NCBI RefSeq assembly: GCF_019649055.1
Contig: NW_026570224.1
Coordinates: 2,666,001-2,730,000 of the forward strand
Source: Paramacrobiotus metropolitanus
Taxonomy: Eukaryota; Tardigrada; Eutardigrada; Parachela; Macrobiotidae
Direction: 5' to 3'
DNA: 64,000 nucleotides
Part shown: positions 2,292-19,964 of the stretch, piece after piece
How the letters are laid out: every line of letters starts with the position of its first letter
How positions within the stretch are numbered: the first letter of the stretch is position 1
Translations under genes and position numbers: made by a program
The notes under the pieces: model-generated
Seen by the model: only the letters and a program-made list of their open reading frames with translations
Told to the model about the DNA's origin: nothing
Databases searched by the model: none

Positions 2292-5200
2292 TTAAACGTT
2301 CGAAGGTTTGTCTTGGACCTCCGGTCCGAAAAGTTTCCTTTTTGTTTCTTTCCGGCCGACCTAAGCATGACAACAACCGTCGTAAGACATGACAGATAAT
2401 TTGATGCCCTCTACTGCTGTCCACAATACATCCTCAGAAATCAGTTCTATATTCTTCTTCCGGTATTTGATTAAGTACTCAAAATGCCATTGAAATTAAA
2501 CGTTAAAAATTTAACATTGGCCACATAATTGTTCTGTTTATTTACCAGCCAGTATGTGGTCATCAAGCCTTTGCCTTTTATCTGAAATCATCCAGAATTA
2601 CGCACCAGTAATAAACGTGGCACATACATGTATAGATATATGATACGCATGCATGTATGACATTCTCCAAGTTTGAGATTGAGAAAAAGCACTAACCGGA
2701 ATTTCACCGCGTTTCTCCAGTTCAAATACACCGAAAAATGTTATAGCGTCGTACGATGACTGGCTGCAGTGAATTCTCAGCCCTTCTCCATTGGACTCCA
2801 TGCGGCTTGCAGTATTTACTGTATCTCCGAACCTGATCAGATTGGCATGAGTGAACGCATAAATAGCTTCTTGTTATTTTGCTATCAGTAGTTATCTACC
2901 ATTAGCTGTTATTTTGCCATCACAGTTATTATAAACAAGTATTAATCAAAAGTTTGGTCATCCACTCATCCGCAACTTACACGCAGTATCTGGGCATTTT
3001 GTTACCGATGACCCCTAAAAAGCACAAGATGCGTAAAATACGTTTTGACTGTAGTCTGTAGCGATAATGGTACAGATACTGCAGTCTATTGTACATGTGC
3101 TTGATGGGATGCAAAGTATGGCTATGAGCTACCGTAACGCAGTCAGGCTATCGAAGGTAAGAATAACTTTCACGAAAATAAAAATCAAACATGAGCCAAT
3201 ACCCGAAACAGCTTTTGGGTTGTTATAAATTTTCCTACAGGATAATGTTTTGCATGACCGCAGTTTTAGGCACACTAACCGGCAACGCATGGTCCAGTGT
3301 GAATACCAATTCTTATTCTGAGCCGATACTCTGGCTTATGAGGAAGCACGATTCCGCTCACCTGAAATCATATTTTTTCGTGTAACTGTATTTGGCATTT
3401 CTATACCGGCATCACGCTGACTGAGAGGTTATGTAATTGTTGCTTAAGTTGTTCTGGTAGGTATATTAACGATATCTCAGTTTCAGATCCCTTACATCCG
3501 GTATTAGCTCTAAAGCCATGGATGCTATCTCAAAGGAATGTTTGTTTCCATTTCTCTCCGGAAGTCCGGATACGCATAAATAAGCGTCACCTAGCATGAT
3601 CAATATATAATCAGAATATGCAGATTGACCTTACATTGGGCCTGGAATCCCATAACACCCACCTATTGTTTCGACTTTATATACATCGTACGCTTCGATT
3701 CTGTTGTCCATAATTGTGTACAACTTATTTAAGGTATCCACGACTTGCAACGGCGTCGAAGCGGCACTTAAATCCGTAAACGATACAATATCACTAAAGA
3801 ATATTGTGACTTGATCAAATGATTCCTGCAACGAAACATCGCTTTGTATTTACGTACTACATTACTCGTCCGGTTAAAATTAGCTGGTCAAATAGAAATG
3901 AATGCTCCTCGTATACATGCTTGCTAAACAATTGTAAGTGCTGGATGCAGATCCAGAATGGCATTAACGGTAACATGCTTAAGTTTTATGTGCGTGCATC
4001 GATGCAGGTGAATGTAACTTGCACTTATTTACCGGATATATAGGCTGTCCCATTTTTATCTTCTCGGCAATTTGTCGCGGCATGAGCTGATTCAACACAG
4101 TTTCGGTACGCTTCTTTTCCCGCATAACTTCCTCGTTTTTTGTTTGCAGTATTTGTGCAAAACCGTGTATCTGCGAGGTAATATGGTTTAATAGTATGAT
4201 CACACTGGGAAACAAGATGGCAGCAACGATGACGACAAATATCTGAATCCACAGGGAAATATTGGAGTCATTCACTGCTGTACTCAAATTATTGGTAATA
4301 CTGGCTGTCAGATTTGTCTCAATATCGTATAATATGTTCTGGAAATTGGTCATTTGTGCATAGTAGAACAGTCCGAGGTCAATGTCAACATAGCCATTGT
4401 TTTCGTTAATCAGCTGCCGTTGTGCCGTTATATTCCTTCTTAATCCCGAAGAATACCAGCGTTGTTCAAGCATTTTAGAAATATAGGCATCATACTGTAG
4501 GCTTTTATTCAGCAGAACTTGACCCTGTGATCGTTTGTCCAGGTGCCAAATATATTCGTCCGTCGTCATGTTTCCTGGAAGCACCATTGCATAAACTTGT
4601 GTTTATATCAAACAGTAGACTTGACATGTAAATTTTTCAGAAAATTAGTTCAAAACATTCAAAACACATACTTCAAGTACTGTTATTAAAACTATAAATG
4701 AACTGCTGTAAGCGAGCGTTTCTTTTGATGTTTTTGTTGACATCCATAATTCCGCGGGTACCGTTTACTGCCCCAGTGTTAATTATATAGCGATAATCAA
4801 TACACATAACAAAATTCGCTTTCGCCTGCATAAATATTTTTAAAAAATTATCTGGACAAACAGATATTTTCTTAATATGCTATTGTCCACGCATCCTAGT
4901 TTCCAGTTAATAAATGAGTAGAAATGCAGTATAAAGGTCTTTACGTCATTTTATACACCAAGCCAACCTTTGGAATAGTAAATAGTTCCAGATGACCTTT
5001 CTGCAGCGAAGCCTTCCTTTGCCGATATGAATAAGTGATAACCTAAAGGTACAAGCTCAACAATAAGATGTCGGCACACAAAAACACACATGTGAGCCTT
5101 TTTTCAGAGAATAGAGGTTTTCATTACGTACAGATCTGTACTGATGCATTATAATGCATTAATATTTGCATACTTGCAGTAAATTTTTATCCTAAGTTGT

Positions 5201-7109
5201 ATACACACGAGCATGTACCGGCCGGTATTGTACCGTATTAACAATTTATATAGTTCTGGTTGAAATTCAGCGCAAGCTTGTACCTAATATTATATTATAC
5301 CGCTATACGTACATACCTACTGTTATACGTATATATAAAAGTGCTAGTATGCTGCCGTATTACAATTTACCAATTACAATTACAATAAGTATTAAGTACA
5401 ATAAGTATTACGTATTACAATTTAGCAATTTACCAACTAATTCCTGCCATGGTTGGTCCTGCGATTGCGACTGGACAACAGCCGATCCGATCCAATTTAG
5501 AAGCCCCGCTACCATGTCGGTGAAGAAGGTGAGCTGGGCATCCGGAGTGGACGAATTAACGAATATCCGATTCAGCACGATCTGTAAGATCATATCCTGT
5601 TTTGTCGCATAAAAATCGTCCGGTCGTCCGGTTGTTGGCCACAAGGTCATTTTATTAAGCGCATCGTCGACCATTTTCCTCCTGAAAAAGTTGCACCTGG
5701 TTTTAGCAACTTGATCCACTGGCGCTGAATCTGTATACGAGTACAATACAGGTGGTACGTACGTTTTGTAATTTCAATACGTCTTGCGCTAATCCATCTA
5801 TTGTCTAAGCTCGAGAGAAGCTGCCCGCGTTGAGCATCGATTTACAGTAGTAAATCCGCTATTTTTTCCGGATGCTGCAATTCGCGTTCACTTGAGCAGG
5901 TGTATTTAACATTCTTAACATTTAACATTTGTGTATTTAACATTCTTTTTGAAGTGGTATTACATGATGCAGCGCGAAGCAGGAACAATGTTATGTTACT
6001 AGAAACGTTTTCGACTAAACTACACCAACTCATCAATGCTTCCATACTTCTACTTACTACGTCTGTTGCAAAAAAAAATAATGAAGCATCGAGAAGAATT
6101 TTGTTAATAAGGAGATATGATATTTTAAAAAGCGCACTCAGATATTGTGCAGATATTGTAGTACAGGTTTCAATGCAATAATGATTTTATTTGGACCCTA
6201 AACAATTTTAATACCAGTCGTACCACCTATAAAACGTTTGTGATTGCTTAATCTGGACGTTTCGGTAATTATCAAAACTACTCCACTCATTTAGTGTTCG
6301 GCGAAATCACGTATCACAGCAGCATATTGTCTGTTTGAGTGGTAATTTTTGTGGACGATTTAGCATACTTGATTCAATGCTTTGTCTATATGCTTGTGCA
6401 TCTCCTGCAAGTAAAATCGGTAACCAGAAACTTAGGCGAAACTAAATATTAGCAGCTACAGAGTATGTCTAAACCGATTTCCACGAAAACATATTACCCG
6501 CTTAACTATATATGGTCATAGCGTAACGTTTTTCAAAAAACAAGGTGGCAGATGTTATATTAAAAACACACTTTAAATATCTGTTGCGACTTGCGAGAAC
6601 CATATGTTTTGCGCGATTTACCTGACCAACACTGGAGCGAGTAATCGGTCAATCATCATCCCGCAGTAAAACGTCGTTGTGCCTCTTTCCAGTCCCAGTG
6701 CATGCACAACTGCGCCCGCTTGAATCGCAAATTCCACCTCCTTACGAAATGCACTAGCCGCTTGTTGTTCGGTCAGCGCCGATTTCACAGCGAAACCGGT
6801 TTGTATTAACAGAATAACAATGGGAATACCGGCCAACAACAGGATTTTAGCTAGCTGCGAACGACGTCCTTTGACTGTTCGCGGATCATCGGAACAACGT
6901 CCCAGTGCGAGTTTTAATCGTGAGATAGAACTATGTCCGGTTGTCGTAGAAAGGGCATCAAATTTTTTGGAGGTCACTGAGCTCAGTGTCGCCACCGAAG
7001 ACGCTCGATTACCGTTGTCCATATGGTTATTTGGTAAACGGGGTTTAGAAGGAAATCGCGGTGGAGGATGCGGGAAATCCGTGCCGTTACCAAGTTTTTC
7101 CGTAGCCAT
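2292..7109 (-). CDS. Transmembrane guanylate cyclase with extracellular NIT-like domain, copy 1
   Basis: Eleven exons in transcript order: 7109..6622, 5681..5434, 5042..4968, 4574..4033, 3825..3663, 3590..3496, 3361..3280, 3014..2981, 2832..2697, 2581..2546, 2360..2292; 1968 nt, 655 aa. Order: a cytosolic Ser/Thr-rich N-terminus with [12 protein letters not shown]1 (about 86-108), an extracellular helical region (about 109-378) with an LERGTTTFY motif like the (Q)xERG signature of NIT domains, TM2 (about 379-403), a charged coiled-coil linker, then a class III cyclase domain (about 450-640). Metal-binding Asp lie in FSDIVSFT and GDAY. Guanine-selecting Glu and Cys lie in KVETIGD and MPRYC. 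Transition-state Asn/Arg lie in NTASRMES. So it should act as a homodimeric GTP-to-cGMP enzyme. There is no kinase-homology and no H-NOX domain. Start: first in-frame ATG before the juxtamembrane segment. Cyclase is certain; the NIT ligand is inferred. Confidence 0.88.
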
Positions 7110-10100
7110 ATACAATATATATCTACCACTGAACAATATCTTGTCGCTTATACAATTCGATGTACTATTAGCCACTTCCAGGTGGTATGTAGTGGCTCGA
7201 TCAGCCTAGCACTGAAAATTGACACCTTATTACGTTTCGCTTCGCGAGCTGCTTAAAAAACATGAAAGTTGCTTTTGCTGGAGCAGATAAAAACCCGCGT
7301 CCCGTCCCATAAGCCTAATACATATTTAATGCCTCCTTCCCGTTGCATTGGTTTCATTATGTTGCTCCCCGGGTAGCACGCGCGACAGGTGAACAATGCT
7401 TACGTTAAAAGCGTGCCTCCGCAAAAATCGAAGGCCGGAATGCCCAGCTAACTTGCTGTTGGCTCGCCTAATCGATGAAGACCAAATTGGCTGTACTTTG
7501 GCGGTTTGGAGTTAGCCATAAACCTCTCTCAAACTTACGAAATGTCAACATTCCGCCTGCTGACAGCAATTTGCAATCCTATTTAGACCTGATAAAGTAT
7601 TTTGTAAAGCCACTTTGCCTGACCCGTCCCGGCGATCTGCCTATCAAAACATCATAGGCGCAAAATTTCCGATAAAAGTTTTTTGTCATACCTCTGTTTG
7701 GAAAAATTATCATATTATGGCCGATGGAAGGGATCAACGGTTTCTATAGGTTTTTGGTATGTTTACAAGGCCAAACGATCCACTGCAGAAATTAACAGGC
7801 GTGGCTCTGCGGTTATTGATTCGATTCTTGTAGAACCGTAAGCATTTGTGCACTCCCAGGCATGACCTTTCTCGTGTCGCTCTGTGCGTACGTTGGGAGC
7901 ATGGCTTAATTCTGCTGAATTTCAATTTGCAGTCGATCTTGACCATGCAGTTTGTCGCTGTCGTAATCCGATTTTGCATGTTTTCAGTTTGTCTTAGTAC
8001 ACAATTAGCGATGCAAGCGCAGGTTACATGAGATCACTTGCACTCTAGATCTGGCCATGGCGTGCCAGATTGCAATTTGCAATTGCAAGCAGTTGCATAT
8101 GACACATAACCCGAAGATCTTATTGTTAATTAGAACTTTATGTGAACGGAAATACTTCTGGAGGGCAATCCGGCACTTTTAACATTTTATGCATCTCAAG
8201 AATAAGCCGCTTAATTCTTTGTCGTCTTCGAAGAACACTCTTTTAATTCATGGTGCTTAAAAATAAAAAGCCGGTATGTCTTATTATGTATAATTGTTGA
8301 TGTTTTCGTTGGTGTCAATGTACTTAGCTAAAGCGAGACCAGATTTTATATTCATAGGTGGCTATTATGAACACCTGAAGATCTTGTAAAAATTGCAACT
8401 TCCGCTATATTAAGGCGACGTGCGATTATGGTATAGACGATTTAGAATGATGAAATTTATAAACTATTTTTCCAGTAACCATATTAAGTTTTGTTATTTA
8501 AGTTTGGGTCGCAGTTCATGTTTCATTACGACACTGTATGAATATAAATGGATTTTGTGCTGTTTGTGGGATTTTCTATTGGATACTGCGCCCTTACTTC
8601 GTTGGCATTTCGCACCTCGGCTATCACGTGTGTTTTTTGTTATACATATGTCGTACAGAAATATTGTGGAAAAATTGATTAATTCAACTTTTTTTGGTAA
8701 TTCACGGGCACTGTTTACATTTATGATTTTCAAAAAGAGTATTGAAAATTCTTTCGTACTCTCTTATACTGTGGTACCTTCTTTTAAGATTGTTTGAATA
8801 AGGACGTAACAATTTAGGTAAATAAAGGTTACGCTCAACAGAATGCGGGTTCGGAGGTACTCAAACGATTCGGGCAAACCAGTCACAAGATCTGTTACTG
8901 GACTTGAATGCAATATCCGAATTACCTGATTCTGGCGTTCTTAACGAAACTCCTTTAATTTCATTTGTATTATGTAACTACCGTTGGTTGTTGCTGAATG
9001 GCCCGTCTTTTCGATTTTTATTTGAGAGCCTGTGACTGTTATTGGTTAGTGGGGTGTGTACGCTCAGCTATATTATTCACAACGGAACAGTAAACACTGT
9101 TTAGCAGTGTAACTACTACTACAAAGTATTATATTATTTTTCTGTATCATCGACCGTTGATAAGTACGTAATTACTGTACTGTGCTGTTCTACATGTTGC
9201 ATACTGTATTTGTGTAACAATTACAGTAAAACTATTTATACGTATTGTTAATTTCTCCATCGTGCATGCAAGTGTACGAAAGTCGGTGCCGCTTGGTAGT
9301 ACAATTATATATGCCGCACTCGCCAAATAATTTCTTTCTTGCTAAACTTGGAATGTTTATTTTATTATATTGACAAGTTGCATTTAACCTTGCGATTATA
9401 ATGGACAAACTAAATTAAGGCTTTTCTGGGTTGTTTTTCTTCGTCTGTCTCCTTGTATAGGACCAGTTCTGGTTGTTATAGTGTGTCTCGTTGTACTGGA
9501 GCAATCCTGATTGTAGCAAAACTAAGAGAACAATATAAACAAACCATGCTACAAAGTTGTAAGTGAAAGCAGTCAGCAGAATATCTTTGAATACCCGTTG
9601 GATGTTGATATATACGCACACTTCTTAAAATGTTTTGGCCCTCATGTTTTTTTTTATTTAAAAAACTGAAAATTAAAATTTAACTCCATTCGCCTTAAAC
9701 TGAACTAAATTCACAGGTAAACTATGTTTAGGAACTGTTTACCATTCAAATTGATGGGGTTTTAACTTGAAAACGCCTATTACAGGTCGAAGCGTCTTTA
9801 AACTGATCCAGGTACCGGTGCACATTACTTATTTACAGATACCTTTAGGTTCTAAACTGACGAACAATTGAATACGATTGATTGATGTTGATTCTTGCGC
9901 AGTTAACCATAAGTAGGTTCCGTAACTCCGTTAGATCATTTGAAGAAACAGGTAATCATAATATTATAATTGATTTGAACCGTGATTAGCTTAAAGTAAT
10001 TAAGCTAATCGCGGTTAATATTGTTCGTTTCATGAGAGGCTTGAGAGCTGTCGCAGCTGAGAATAAAAAACATAAAACCATTACTTATCCTTTAACGATA

Positions 10101-11454
10101 TTGTATCCTGTGTATATAACCTGTTACGCATACAGTCTTCCAAAATGTTGCGAGCAATACAAATGGCAGCGCGGCCTTAATATTATAACATTTCGATGAA
10201 TAGCAGCAAAAGTACTTATACAAACTGACCGCAGTTCCAGCGCTTCGAGCTATCCCTGCTACGTTTCTTGAACACCCTTGTCACTAAATATGCCGTGAGA
10301 CGTGAGTTATGCTGTTCGTTTGACCGCTTGGAATGAACCAGTATCCCAGCTGGAGCCACCTGAGTAATAGTGTCAAGTCAGTTAAGAACCTCCTCGGTCG
10401 TATTGTTGCCGGTCGAGCCAACTTTTCATCCCAGTAACCGCATAATCACGGTAAAGGTGGTAAGGACTGCAGATATATCGCCACCGCACTCGGACAGACG
10501 TAGCCACTATAGCTGCAGATAGGCTGTTGCGACAATAATATACTCGTACATTCACAGTCAGGAAGAAACCGAGAATTTTTGTGGAGCGAACTTTATTCGG
10601 TATAGACATTCATTTAATATCACAGGTAATTGACTACATATACATTTATCGCAGTAGCATGCGCAATTTTAATAGTCACCTGATTCAAATCGTATTTTTA
10701 GTCACCAAAAATAAGTAAAAGCGCACTGCATGGATAACCTTAGAGACTTTTGAAGGCATCAAATTATTTTATTAATCATCGACTTATAGCAATAATATTT
10801 AAGCATCCTGCATCGCATCCGTTGGTTGGAGATTTTCAATTCTTATACCAACCGGTGTAATCTGAATACATGTAGTATTCACAGAAATTTGTGCGCTAAG
10901 TAACAAATTTTTGCACATCGCCTACCATAGCGCACAAGCATCGCAAAGTGTGATAAGACCTCACACACTCTTTTGCATAACATTTTGTTCGGTACTGCAG
11001 AGTACAATTAGGCACCGAAAATATTAGAAGCAAATTAAATCTTTGCCGAAAAATCTGCGAAATGAACGAAAGAACTGGTAACGTGGATGATAATCACTTA
11101 GTACAGGCATTTCATAAAACTGTTTCCGGTTCTCAAAGGTTTCCCGCTGCGGATCCTTTTAGTGTTGTAGCTATTTAACACAGCTGTAAGGCACAGGGAG
11201 TGGAACGAACGCCGGCGCCCTGCGAACGATGTCACATGGCACGCCAGCATGGAACAATGTGTGTCGCAAAATTAGACATCACTGTACAATATGATCGGTG
11301 AAACAACCTCGCCGAATCTTAGCGAAATTTACAGGCACACTCAGTACCGGCGCGTCGCAAAGGATCTCAGCCCAGCATGTCCGTGCGGCAGACCGGAAAC
11401 TACGTGGATTGCTCCAGGCGACCTTGCCGCGACAGCAATCAATTAAACTTCCAT
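7110..11454. other. 4.3-kb intergenic region between the two cyclases
   Basis: The 5' flank of cyclase copy 1 and 3' flank of copy 2. No conserved domain or splice-supported gene was found on either strand. Frames such as 8420..8797 are low-complexity and lack a plausible ATG context. An imperfect hairpin at 9978..10016 is listed separately. If the two cyclases share distal control, it would sit here. Confidence 0.4.
9978..10016. repeat. Imperfect hairpin, 17-bp arms
   Basis: Left arm 9978..9994 and right arm 10000..10016 are reverse complements with one mismatch, separated by 5 nt. It is AT-rich and lies in the long intercyclase spacer. It could be a relic of a mobile element. No transcript evidence is available from sequence. 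Confidence 0.6.
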
Positions 11455-14400
11455 CTAGGCTTTGACCTCCGGACCGAATAGGTTTCTCTTGGTTGCCTTT
11501 TTAGACATCAGCCAGTAGGTTACCATCAAGCCTTTTCCTTTGATCTGCAGCCCATTACAACGGCCTTGAACAAATTTTGATTTTCTCCATTTTCTTCTAG
11601 TTTACTGTGTTAATGCCAGTGCACCTTACATTCATTTCTCCACGCCGTTCCATTTCAAAGATGTTAAAAAATGTTAATGCATCATAGGTGGCTGTGCTTA
11701 GATGAATTTTTAACGGCTCTCCATTCGATTCCATTCGGCTGGCTGTATTCACGGTATCACCGAATCTGAAATTCAAAAGCAAACTACCACTCAGTTTTCG
11801 GCGGCTGGTGTACATAATTAAGGATCGAAAACTCGGCCTTTAGCGTAAAGGTTAACGCATTCACGAATTACGATTATGCCTCACGTGAATTCAGTAAAGC
11901 CTCGTGACCGAGTTTCGGCTTTAATTATAACTTTTAATTATCGGGAAATTGTACGTTTTTACATGTTAATCCGTTTCCGGTCATATTGTAACACGCCTAA
12001 ACTTACATGCAGTAGCGAGGCATTTTTATCCCGGTAATACCTAAGGCGGACAAGGATTAATTTAATGCGGAGTGACTCGGCAAACTGCACAGTAAACTGT
12101 TAAATCTACCGTATGACCATTTCCCCAAAAATGCCACAATCTCGGCACCATTTATAGCTCTCGCAGGATTACGAGTGCATGCAGAGAAAAGAGACACTCC
12201 GCGACTTACCTGCAACACACGGTCCAGTATTCAGCCCGATACGTAATCGTAATTCATAATCCGGCTTGTGAGGCATTCGGATTCCCGAAACATCTTTCAG
12301 AAGATCGAGACTCATACAGGCAATTTCATACGAATGTTTGTTCCCATTGCGCTCCGGTAAGCCCGATACGCATAAATAAGCGTCACCTAAAAGCACTTCT
12401 GTTATAACGATCTCACAAATGGGGTAATACTGTGTTATGATACCGGCAAGCCCGATACGCATGAGAATTGTACTCGCAGAATCAGGCTCGGTGAACCGCG
12501 ATTAGCATTTAATGTTTGATTTTTCATTTTTTCACTTAATGTAGTATATTTCGGTAGATGGAGAATACATAAAAAGCCTGCGTATACGTACTATGGACAA
12601 ACAAAGCAATCGTAAAGTGATCAGGTTCATTAAACAGTGGGTAACCTCGTTAAAACGTGTAACTGGATTAGAAAACATGAAATATGTATCTAGTTAAATT
12701 ACTAGTAATAGTTTTCCGAGGGATGATAACGCTATTTTTAGATAAAAACCGTTAGTAGAACAAAAAAAAGTGTGCGTGTGCCAAACGATTGCTTGTGAGA
12801 AACTTTTGAAATGCTAAAAGGTTAAGCCAAATTCGTTGGAAGCTATCAGATAGGTCACAAAAACTATACAGCTGAATTACTTCCGCAGGCCACTGTTTAA
12901 TGATTATGGGCTTAAAGTATTAACCAATGTGCATTAGCCTGGTGTTGATTCCCCTTTTGGTCATTATCTCAAATTGCACTTGATCGACAGTTTACCAGCA
13001 CGCGGATCTGTGACGAATGGGGAAATTACCACTTTCAAGTATTTTACCGTAGTTCCGGTGTACGTAACCGCACTTCCGTATAAAAAAGCTTTTCGCATCC
13101 TGTGGCGACTGTAGCTGTACATGTTTTAGGAAGAATGGCTGCACTGAGTTTTGCACAGAAACAACAAACCAATAAAACATCTTTTTACTGTTTTATGAAC
13201 TGAAAGTTTTTGCACGATTCTCGTATTAAGCACTCCGTATCCACCATCAGACGCGACGCCTAATACGAAAATATTATTATTAGGCTATTAGCCCATGCTT
13301 ATTATTTATAATTAGCCTTTTCAGATTCGGTAGCGTAAGCGGTACATCAGTAAAACCATAATGCTACCCTTCTATGAATGATATTGGAAAGTTAGTAAGT
13401 AATTTAAAAGCCGTACGTTATGGGCTGTAATACAATACATACAGTCACCACTTACCAATTGTTTCGACTTTGTACACGTCATACGCCTCAATCCGTTTAT
13501 CCATAATTGTATATAATTTGTTCAGAGTATCAACAACTTGAAGTGGAGTGGAGCTAGCGCTAAAGTCGGTAAACTGAACAATATCGCTGAAGAAAACCGT
13601 TACTTGATCGTAACTCTCCGGATATACTGGTTGACCACTTTTGATTTTCTCCGCAACTTGCCGAGGTAATAAATGGTTCAGTACAGCATCCGTTCGCTTT
13701 TTCTCTTTCATAATTTCTTCGTTTTTCGTTTGGAGCACAGCCGCAAAGGTCTGTATTTGGCCAGTAATATGCGTGAGGAAGAAGATAATGCTCGGGAATA
13801 AACAACACGCTAAAATCACCACGAAGAGCTGTGCCGCCACTGTCCGTGCTGAATCACTCACAGCATCATTTAAAGTATTTGTAATATTTTTTGTCAGAGT
13901 GTTTTCTATGTCAAAAAGAACACTCTGGAATTTGCTCATCTGGTCGTAATAGAAATTTCCACGTTCAAGATCAGGAACATAATTATTTTCATCGATTCGT
14001 ACACGCTCCAGTGTAACGTTTTTTTCCAGATCGGACGTGTACCATTTGTCCACTAGTATCTGTTGAATCGTTGGGTTAAACTGCATGCTTTTGTTTAAAA
14101 AGGCGTTGCCCTGAGATCGTTTGTCCAGGTACCACTTATATTGCTTCTTCGTCATATTTCCTGTAAAACATTTCATATTAAGTAGACAGTAGACACCGAA
14201 ATTTAACTGCATACGTATATTTTGCCTTTTATTTGTATAAGATGAACAGAAAAATTAAAGTAAATAAATTTTTCCATTAAAGTAAATATGTTTTTCCATA
14301 ATTGATTACGCTCAATGAATACTGCAGTACAGAATACTTTGTACGATTACTATATAGGTAGGCAAGTCCAAACGTTTCAAATTTTCGATACAGAACCAGA

Positions 14401-16611
14401 TGCCTGGTTTACAAGTTGGCTTGACTATGTGGAACAGATAATGTGAATAGCGCGTTACATGTTAATAATGAATTATGTTAATAATCATTTATGGAAAACT
14501 TCGACTGCAGTTTTGTATTCTTCTTATCCTGCGTCGCAAACTATAAAAAAAATCCAAACAAGGGATAGTGCGCACGGGTTGTTTCCTATATTGTATACAT
14601 ATGTTGTAAGTACATACAGAAGTATTCGTATAGGTTATAAATAATTAACCCAATGACGTCAGTTCACTTTATGCTGCTCACGTTTCTTACCGCGGGCGTA
14701 AAATACAGTTCCTGATGAGCGTTCAGCTGCGAATCCCTCCTTGGCAATGATAAATGTGTAATATGCTACCAAATCCTGCCAGCGTTGTTCTTGGGACTCC
14801 GATTTGATAACAGCATCTCCAACCCATCTTAACAATGGCGCAATGATAGTATCCGTGAAGAAAGTTAGCTGTTCTTCCGGCGTGCTCGTATTGACAAAGA
14901 CGCGGTTAACCAGCACTCTTAGAGTTAGCTCCTGTTTATTTTCGAACTCAAACGTACCATCCTTGACGGCTGGCCAGTGGGTCATATTTTTTAAGGCCGC
15001 GTCTACCATAAGTCGCCTAGAACGATGCCACACATGTATAAGTGGACTACCATTTACTTTGAGCTACAATAATTATAAATACTCCTTTTTATATTTCGCG
15101 GATCTCTGTGACGGTTAGTCAGAAGAAGAATAAATATCGTAATACGCATTTTTACTGCTTATTCAGAGCACCAAAAAATTACACAAGCGACAGCACAAAA
15201 CAATTAGGCAGCAATATGTTCCAGTTTCGCATTAACTGCTTTCTTGATCAGCCATAACAGATTCTAGAACATAAATTTGCACTCCGTAAAGCAGTCACAA
15301 TGGCATACTGCGTAAAGTGGTTTGATTTAGTAATATTGTTGCAGTTCTGAAAACAAAACCAATCAGCTCTGAGCTCGCACGGGAATTATAAACAGTAGTT
15401 GTGTGATCTTAAAAGGCAAAACCCTGATTTCAAACCAGACGTCCGATCACATCCGGTGCACTTATTTAACTGTTTGGGTGAACTTTAAATTAAATTTAAA
15501 TTAGTTTTGGTGAACTTCGCTCGTACTAGGGCAGTTACTTTCCGTTACGTTTTTGGTATATATACATGAAAAAGTTAGAAAAACAAAACCAGGTTTTATT
15601 ATAAAAGATTTTTAAGATTAACTGAACGATCCACAAGCATATTTTTTAACCAAGAGACCAGAGACTCATACTATAATTATGTAGTACATATATCGATTAA
15701 GCGTTTTGTATGCTGGAATTACTACTTTCATATGCATCGATATCAGTTTCGGAGCATAAGTTTCGGAGCATAAGTTCGGAGCATAAGTTCGGAGCATAAG
15801 TTACAGGGCAGAAGTACGTTGAGAAATTTGTTACACTCAAAAAACACAAGCGTTATGCAGCGACACGCAAATAAGGGATCGGTTGACTTTCATTAAGTCA
15901 TGCTGCGAAGGTGTGTCTAGTTCTCATTGCTCGTATGCGAAGTAATTTATCCAAGAAGAGTTCAAGCGACATAATTAATATCCATCAGTTTCCTGTTAGT
16001 TTTTGCCTGTCATCAGTACAATGCTGAATGCAATACCTTTTCATCACTGGTTCGAACAATGATTTCTCTTGCATTGCGACAAAGAATGTTGTCGTCCCCC
16101 GTTCCAGGCCTAAGGCATGTACGGCGTATCCGGTCTGAATGGCAAACTCCAGTTGCGCGATAAAAGCATTGGATACGCGCTGCTCCGTTAAGGCTTGCGA
16201 CACGGATATTCCTGACTGAATAATCAGAATTAAAATGGGAATCCCTGCCAGGCACACCATCTTGGTCATCTGGATCCGTCGCCCTTTGACAGTCCGCGGA
16301 TCATCCACACAGTAGCCCACGAGGATTCTGGAGCGGCGTGATAATGAACTCCGACCACTCCGACCGGTGGTTATCGAGACGCCGTCGTAGCGTTTAGTAT
16401 CACCGGCACTGGAAGCAAATGTCGTAACGGAAGCGCGTCGTTCATGATCGCGAGCACTGCCATGATCCGCATTATGCAGAGAAGACCGTTCTTTCAGTAT
16501 ATCCGCCACAGAACCGGAAATCGTGCCATTATGATTAACCACCGGTGTAGGATTAGCATCAGCAGGAATGGCATCACCATTCTCAATCTTATTGTTGCTA
16601 CTGAGTACCAT
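11455..16611 (-). CDS. Transmembrane guanylate cyclase with extracellular NIT-like domain, copy 2
   Basis: Seven exons in transcript order: 16611..16037, 15016..14691, 14160..13456, 12386..12210, 12040..12007, 11765..11630, 11544..11455; 2043 nt, 680 aa. Architecture matches copy 1: a cytosolic N-terminus with the same [10 protein letters not shown] juxtamembrane motif, TM1 (about 116-137), an extracellular helical NIT-like domain starting with [15 protein letters not shown]2 (about 409-432), the linker, and a class III cyclase domain. [20 protein letters not shown] and NTASRMES keep all metal-, guanine- and transition-state residues, so it should be active as a guanylate cyclase. All six introns match positions in copy 1; four further copy-1 introns are absent. 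A TATA-like element lies about 170 bp upstream of the ATG. It ends with [15 protein letters not shown], a tail also conserved in copy 1. Confidence 0.9.
11829..11915. other. Structured tRNA-like inverted-repeat element in an intron
   Basis: An 8-bp closing stem (11829..11836 with 11908..11915) encloses a GCG/CGC mini-stem with a GG-containing loop (11843..11858) and a 7-bp stem (11859..11865 with 11884..11890) with an 18-nt loop. The layout recalls a tRNA or tRNA-derived SINE head. A B-box/T-loop consensus is absent, so I do not call a tRNA gene. Confidence 0.3.
15747..15800. repeat. Short tandem repeat, four 13-14-bp units
   Basis: Four head-to-tail copies of (t)ttcggagcataag: two of 14 nt, then two of 13 nt. 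It lies in the first intron of cyclase copy 2 (intron 15017..16036). Confidence 0.9.
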
Positions 16612-18824: not shown

Positions 18825-19964
18825 CGATCAAGCTTATACCGCAGTGATTTACTGCTTTTCTAAGCCGAAGTGTAGAAACTTTTCTGACCACCCAATGCTA
18901 CTATAATTATAGCAAGGCTTATTAAAATTAGTTTGACAATGTTAATTAATACGTACCGTTGGACTACTGATAATAATAATCTTTAATCGCGGTATTAAAG
19001 ATAATAATTTATTAAGTACTGTATATAGGTAATTATGTTGTGGTAAAGCAGAGCGCAGTCTGGTATCTTTATACTTCATAGTGTTGTGAGTACAGCGTGT
19101 GATGTGGCCTGCAGCATGCTTATTGCGTACACGTGTGCTTTAGGAATATAGAAGACCAGCAAGAAACAGGTTTTTCTGGAAGGTTTTGTAATCCTAGAAA
19201 TATTTTTGTCTTTCGCGGTTTCACCATATCGTTCTTGTGACTCGGCACTGTCGGCAGTGTAATATCTTTCCTAACTCACGGTAATTTCCTGTAGGCTGTA
19301 CCGCCTGTACGGCATTGTCTATTTCTGTAATGTAAAATAATAGTTTCGTTCTATACTTCTACTTCTATGTGAATAATGATAACTTGCATTTACTGGAGGA
19401 TAATAAGACAGTCGAAAGCGATAAGTCAGATATGCAAACGCTATCTTTGGAACCTGTCGTATACTTACTGCAGTGGTGATCTCATGCACAATACACATCG
19501 TTGGCAGGGAATCCTTGAAGCACTGCAGCTGGTTTGCTGAGTTAACGTGAAGGATAGATGCATAGTTGGAGATCCCTATGCCCTCACATTACTGTAGACT
19601 GTTTAGTAAGTTCTACGATCTATTCTATTCGCATCTATTCTGTGTCCTATAGTTGCTGGACAACTCCGCTGATTCTGCGCTAGTGGAAGGGGAATATCAA
19701 TGTTTCTTGAGATCCAGCACGCGATTCACGATTGTAATACCTTCTGGGGACCATCTCACCATCAGCTAAATCTAACTAATTGAGAATCTACAGCTGCGAT
19801 TTCCTGGCTGCTAACTGGGCTTTCATTTGTGATTAGCTCGCTCATTATCCTTTTGCATTTGCCACATGCAACTACTGGGTTTCTTTGCTTTTCGGGGATT
19901 CGTATGATTAGCAGCTGCTTCAAGCCACGTTTCTTTCCTTCGCCACGGTCCGTGCACAGCAACC

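Follow-up and report, generated by a model that had tools for sequence, protein, structure and literature searches.

A tandem pair of NIT-domain guanylyl cyclase genes in the tardigrade Paramacrobiotus metropolitanus

Animal NIT-guanylyl cyclases and two tardigrade members

In 2006, a third class of animal guanylyl cyclases was reported from insects and sea urchins, combining a predicted extracellular NIT (nitrate/nitrite-sensing) domain with an S-helix and a cyclase (Anantharaman, Balaji and Aravind 2006, PMC1592074). The authors proposed that these proteins are extracellular nitrogen oxide receptors, distinct from the HNOB/HNOBA cyclases. NIT-guanylyl cyclases (NIT-GCs) were later surveyed across animals and reported as lost in vertebrates (Moroz et al. 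2020, PMC7400543); a 2023 ctenophore paper, at variance with that survey, mentions NIT-domain cyclases in ctenophores. In Platynereis, NIT-GC1 is needed for nitric oxide (NO) feedback to photoreceptors (Jokura et al. 2023, via the eLife Insight PMC10584369). Here, we describe two genes, A and B, in a 64,000-nucleotide stretch of the Paramacrobiotus metropolitanus genome (contig NW_026570224.1, positions 2,666,001 to 2,730,000; hereafter the window). An earlier note, made from the letters of this DNA, had placed two cyclase genes at window positions 2292-16611, and spliced models on the minus strand confirm both (Table 1). That A and B belong to the NIT-GC family is close to certain.

Both proteins run from an N-terminal tail through a first transmembrane segment (TM1), a NIT domain, a second transmembrane segment (TM2) and a helical linker to a guanylyl cyclase. 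The earlier note had read the order from TM1 to cyclase in the same way, and Pfam and hydropathy analyses bear it out. Searched on both proteins, Pfam NIT (PF08376) matches residues 164-393 of A at 54.1 bits and 133-363 of B at 49.3 bits, above its curated cut-off of 24.9. The two transmembrane segments that flank this domain were identified by hydropathy only; 19-residue windows with hydropathy above 1.6 start at residues 112-124 and 403-416 in A and at 83-95 and 373-386 in B. Six N-glycosylation sequons lie in the ectodomain of A (residues 202, 234, 302, 323, 348 and 392), and the cyclase parts of both proteins lack such sites, which fits an extracellular NIT domain. The predicted orientation places the NIT domain outside the membrane and the cyclase inside. 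Residues 141-402 of A contain no cysteine, and the corresponding region of B contains one (residue 149). The linkers of both proteins carry KKRT, by eye similar to the ERT signature of the S-helix (PMC1592074). The last 38 (A) or 33 (B) positions of HNOBA also match in the linker, below the cut-off (19.7 and 16.3 versus 23.4 bits), and B has an additional sub-threshold match to Ank_KRIT1 (14 bits versus a cut-off of 80). Neither protein has a Pfam match up to E 1 to a kinase domain or to the HNOB haem domain; the earlier proposal of independence from H-NOX is therefore fair at the domain level.

The ectodomain is linked to bacterial NIT domains by profile comparison. A profile of A and B aligned with 29 bacterial NIT domains in hhalign at 98.3% probability (E 1.8e-14, 273 columns), while 20 column-shuffled controls gave 0.1 to 1.0%. 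Together with the Pfam scores, this substantiates the NIT-like sensor that the earlier note had suspected. Queried with the A ectodomain in tblastn, 72,556 plasmid records gave four hits: three are to chemoreceptors, from Plesiomonas (E 6e-4), Aliarcobacter (E 4e-3) and Allorhizobium (E 1), and the fourth falls on an unannotated site in Azospirillum (E 0.2). The Plesiomonas and Aliarcobacter chemoreceptors carry NIT domains scoring 225.5 and 180.9 bits, and the Plesiomonas NIT matches NasR of Klebsiella oxytoca (PDB 4akk) at E 9.3e-19. A profile that combines A and B with the Plesiomonas and Aliarcobacter NIT domains likewise reaches NasR, at E 2.8e-21. From this homology, A and B would adopt the NIT fold of two four-helix bundles. 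NasR shares with A and B the NIT family and both pocket arginines (see below) but differs in its output, which is ANTAR RNA-binding (PMC8199190, PMC7496416) where that of A and B is a cyclase domain.

At least 27 further bacterial loci were recruited with DNA patterns on two ER motifs, drawn from an alignment that included A, B and the plasmid loci L003 and L004; the 27 listed loci were confirmed by similarity to A. All 27 encode NIT, 22 MCPsignal and 18 HAMP, with GGDEF, EAL and PF00211 found once each; two have short frames (L011, 291 codons; L033, 268 codons). The sole cyclase carrier among them is L029, from a gammaproteobacterial metagenome-assembled genome, in which a single 534-codon frame (464-2065) holds both NIT and a PF00211 cyclase (73.7 bits) as in A and B. 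A NIT-cyclase fusion thus exists in a bacterium, too. By eye, L029 has DKYIGD where A and B have VETIGD, a residue that we take to be adenylyl-type under the class III rules.

The cyclase domains score 220.2 (A) and 217.6 (B) bits with Pfam Guanylate_cyc. The FFSDIV, VETIGDAY, PRYC and NTASRMES motifs are intact in both copies. In class III cyclases, the E and C of the VETIGDAY and PRYC motifs select GTP. The guanylyl-type motifs are therefore complete in both copies, and the full active site claimed in the earlier note stands. The best PDB sequence match is ANP receptor 1 (GC-A), at E 1.2e-78 over the cyclase and part of the linker. GC-A has a different ectodomain, a single transmembrane segment and a kinase-homology domain. 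By sequence, the A and B cyclases are putatively of the receptor (ANPR) type without a kinase-homology domain.

Among described systems, A and B resemble the insect and sea urchin NIT-GCs in layout, with no difference found from the part of the 2006 description used here (PMC1592074). They also resemble placozoan NIT-GCs, in which two transmembrane segments enclose the NIT domain and the C-terminal PF00211 cyclase is assigned to the ANPR group; unlike Trichoplax, with its twelve reported NIT-GC genes, the tardigrade has two detected (PMC7400543). Two nitrate-sensing-type guanylate cyclases in one species are likewise reported in Platynereis (NIT-GC1 and NIT-GC2), where the NO feedback function is reported for NIT-GC1, while A and B are known here from their genes alone (PMC10584369). 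The earlier note had described NIT domains as known mainly from bacteria. The view that their combination with a cyclase is unexpected in animals is not supported, and we do not treat the architecture as new: a 2006 paper already presented it along with a like proposal on the ligand, and a 2020 survey covered it across animals (PMC1592074, PMC7400543). The receptor family is already described; what the tardigrade locus adds is an old tandem pair, the only NIT-GCs detected in its genome, and an altered pocket.

An old tandem pair and its genome

Exons were placed manually, guided by homology between the two copies and by GT and AG dinucleotides; that all 16 introns have GT...AG borders thus partly reflects how the models were built. 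When joined, the seven exons of A and the eleven of B each read from ATG to stop without a frame break. All six introns of A match introns of B in alignment column and phase; B has four more. Identity between the copies is 53.9% in the NIT region (144/267), 72.7% in the coil (32/44) and 79.0% in the cyclase (147/186). The tail ahead of TM1, about 80 to 110 residues long in both copies (window positions 16037-16611 and 6622-7109), is 44.2% identical (38/86 aligned positions). The synonymous distance is saturated and yields no computable value, and hence no selection ratio. The coincident introns, the levels of identity and the saturated synonymous distance are most simply explained if a gene that already had introns was duplicated in tandem long ago.

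We searched the genome (169,799,020 bases in 533 contigs) for further copies and for related signaling domains. The A ectodomain, searched up to E 10, gave seven exon matches, all within genes A and B. No NIT-GC gene besides these two was detected, although more divergent ones could be missed. NO synthase gave 11 matches at two places, near 1.10 Mb on contig C4 and near 377 kb on contig C18; the oxygenase-domain exon matches lie at C4:1102769-1105086 and C18:376436-378149. HNOB gave 22 exon matches and HNOBA 43 up to E 0.1; some of the latter, the gene A linker included, fall below the cut-off. The PF00211 family includes adenylyl as well as guanylyl cyclases; scoring 150 of 849 candidates yielded 205 exon matches to it, a lower bound. 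These are spread over many contigs (e.g., C71, C87, C163 and C6), with several lying close together on one contig. Class III cyclases have probably undergone a large expansion in this genome.

Pocket residues and candidate ligands

An ERG motif stands in the NIT domain of both copies (A170 and B141), in line with the earlier note, and a second ER motif, absent from that note, lies at A290 and B260. By itself, ERG is weak evidence because it recurs at A366 (B holds just one), and we rejected it as a stand-alone indicator of NIT. The longer motifs H....ERG and KE....ER are kept in A and B. When the A ectodomain was shuffled 20,000 times, they arose 11 and 77 times, respectively, and never jointly.

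The arginines of these motifs, R171 and R291 in A (R142 and R261 in B), align with R77 and R203 of NasR (chain numbering of the PDB match). Both columns hold arginine in all 30 other aligned sequences, which comprise the 27 listed genome loci, two plasmid loci and NasR. Conservation of a recruiting motif is by construction, as the genome loci were picked with the ER-motif patterns. However, 25 of the 27 carry the first pattern only, one (L033) the second only and one (L021) both, so the second arginine was not pre-selected in 25 loci. NasR, L003 and L004 were not recruited by pattern, the latter two coming from the search with the A ectodomain. A third arginine of A, R353, is shared by 25 of the 30 sequences, including NasR, in a gapped part of the alignment. 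In NarQ-like sensors, the nitrate-binding residues form G-x-x-R motifs, and NasR keeps both arginines with Gln in place of one Gly (PMC8199190). We infer that the arginines aligned with R171 and R291 are these NasR arginines, which fits the Q-x-x-R at the first site of NasR and the G-x-x-R at the second; the positions three residues before them would then be ligand-side.

Our favored reading is that A and B are paralogous NIT-GCs in which a small ligand gates cGMP synthesis, the ligand being a nitrogen oxide within an NO network; we give this reading as a whole a probability of roughly 0.55 (it overlaps with the alternatives below, so the probabilities do not sum to 1). The protein would act as a dimer in which R171 and R291 (in B, R142 and R261) hold a small ligand where the two NIT helical bundles meet. 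Binding would shift TM2 and the linker and thereby switch on cGMP synthesis. The likeliest class of ligand is a nitrogen oxide to which NO synthase activity gives rise, be it nitrite, nitrate or NO itself, which would make A and B part of an NO network rather than independent of it. This class is favored by the retained arginines and by the Platynereis NIT-GC1 result (PMC10584369). Taken on its own, a nitrogen oxide ligand has about even odds.

Several results weigh against this reading, some at the level of homology and others at the pocket. Plain phmmer with the A ectodomain found no match in PDB up to E 10. A profile of A and B only ranks NasR first, but without significance (E 0.78) and with an iron-binding protein of no relation close behind (E 0.94). 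Direct similarity thus ties A and B only weakly to NasR, whereas the link through bacterial NIT domains is strong. A six-frame search of the tardigrade genome with PF08376 also returned no match, nor did the same search of 14 control genomes. We do not read this as absence of NIT, since the controls were empty as well and since the sequence encoding the domain is divided among three exons in A and four in B, which probably explains the empty search. At the pocket, the residues three before the arginines are Gly168 and Ala288 in A, with the same residues in B, where the other aligned sequences have Gln (30/30) and Gly (30/30), NasR among them. These counts were not forced by recruitment, as the patterns permitted Gly or Gln at one position and Ala or Gly at the other. 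The pocket of A and B is therefore not identical to that of NasR. Finally, the NIT domain of Pseudomonas PA4520 is reported to bind neither nitrate nor nitrite, and its authors suggest NIT subfamilies with different ligands (PMC6381276); NIT membership alone is thus no proof of nitrate binding. The altered positions and the PA4520 result are the chief grounds for doubting a nitrogen oxide ligand.

Both copies keep the arginines yet share two substitutions absent from the 30 aligned bacterial sequences. We tentatively conjecture, as a rather doubtful extension, that the NIT domain of animal NIT-GCs, or of this lineage, was retuned from nitrate to another NO-derived or small ligand, with the tandem pair, its ectodomains diverging and its cyclase conserved, forming a heterodimer or two separately tuned receptors.

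The strongest alternative, which we consider possible but clearly the less probable account, is that A and B are NIT-GCs whose ectodomain has moved to another ligand (a different small anion, a peptide or none), the NIT fold being merely inherited. The Gln to Gly and Gly to Ala changes in both copies speak for it, as do PA4520 and the ligand-differing subfamilies suggested for it (PMC6381276). The lower identity of the NIT region relative to the cyclase is what divergence of the sensors would produce, though the enzyme part tends to be the more conserved one in any case, and the abundance of cyclase-domain matches in the genome is compatible with much receptor specialization. Against this account, both arginines and both extended ER motifs are retained in A and B, and NIT-GC1 of Platynereis acts in NO signaling (PMC10584369).

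The earlier note had proposed a direct receptor for environmental nitrate or nitrite, independent of NO, which now appears improbable. Its ectodomain is indeed a NIT domain, predicted to be extracellular, and the 2006 and 2020 papers put forward a similar hypothesis (PMC1592074, PMC7400543). However, Platynereis NIT-GC1 mediates endogenous NO signaling (PMC10584369), this genome contains NO synthase matches, and the pocket positions are unlike those of bacterial NIT domains; on the first two of these grounds, we rejected independence from NO. It is very unlikely that one or both copies are pseudogenes or wrongly joined exons, for although the models were assembled manually from genomic DNA alone, with splice borders sought at GT and AG, the frames are open, six common introns agree in phase, the catalytic motifs are intact in both copies, and cyclase identity remains high despite a saturated synonymous distance.

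Feature coordinates, neighboring genes and significance

Ten coding frames between window positions 19908 and 61119 were compared with Pfam, and seven have a match above the cut-off (Table 1). At 1103-1206, past the 3′ end of gene B, a RING-finger match falls below the Pfam cut-off (20.6 versus 27.3 bits).

Table 1. Coordinates of genes A and B, their domains and pocket arginines, and neighboring genes (positions in the window)
Feature	Position	Strand	Basis
Gene A (copy 1), NIT-guanylyl cyclase, 680 aa	11455..16611	minus	hand-placed spliced model, open frame
Gene A exons (7)	16611-16037, 15016-14691, 14160-13456, 12386-12210, 12040-12007, 11765-11630, 11544-11455	minus	
Gene A NIT, first part, end of exon 1	16037..16122	minus	spliced model and Pfam; computed from exon table
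Gene A NIT, second part, whole of exon 2	14691..15016	minus	spliced model and Pfam
Gene A NIT, third part, start of exon 3 (TM2 and coiled linker later in exon 3)	13883..14160	minus	
Guanylyl cyclase domain of gene A, residues 479-664, from the last part of exon 3 into exon 7, with introns	11506..13627	minus	
Gene A first pocket arginine, R171	16101-16099	minus	alignment
Gene A second pocket arginine, R291	14721-14719	minus	alignment
Gene B (copy 2), NIT-guanylyl cyclase, 655 aa	2292..7109	minus	hand-placed spliced model, open frame
Gene B exons (11)	7109-6622, 5681-5434, 5042-4968, 4574-4033, 3825-3663, 3590-3496, 3361-3280, 3014-2981, 2832-2697, 2581-2546, 2360-2292	minus	
Gene B NIT, first part, end of exon 1	6622..6713	minus	spliced model and Pfam
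Gene B NIT, exons 2 and 3 plus the intervening intron, which A lacks	4968..5681	minus	spliced model and Pfam
Gene B NIT, last part, start of exon 4	4297..4574	minus	spliced model and Pfam
Gene B first pocket arginine, R142	6686-6684	minus	alignment
Gene B second pocket arginine, R261	4998-4996	minus	alignment
Ubiquitin-conjugating enzyme	19908		Pfam
SSB	26854	minus	Pfam
AAA ATPase with 26S subunit 7 OB match	41280		Pfam
Glycosyltransferase 61	46927		Pfam
GRF zinc finger with endonuclease domain	52571		Pfam
PAN domain	57534	minus	Pfam
Cytochrome P450	60430	minus	Pfam

The finding adds a family member and a pocket-residue difference rather than a new principle. For nitrogen oxide signaling to cGMP in animals, NIT-GCs are a second candidate route, one bound to the membrane. 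With two NIT-GCs detected, both in complete frames, and with NO synthase and H-NOX domain matches, this genome offers a small test case for NIT sensing in animals.

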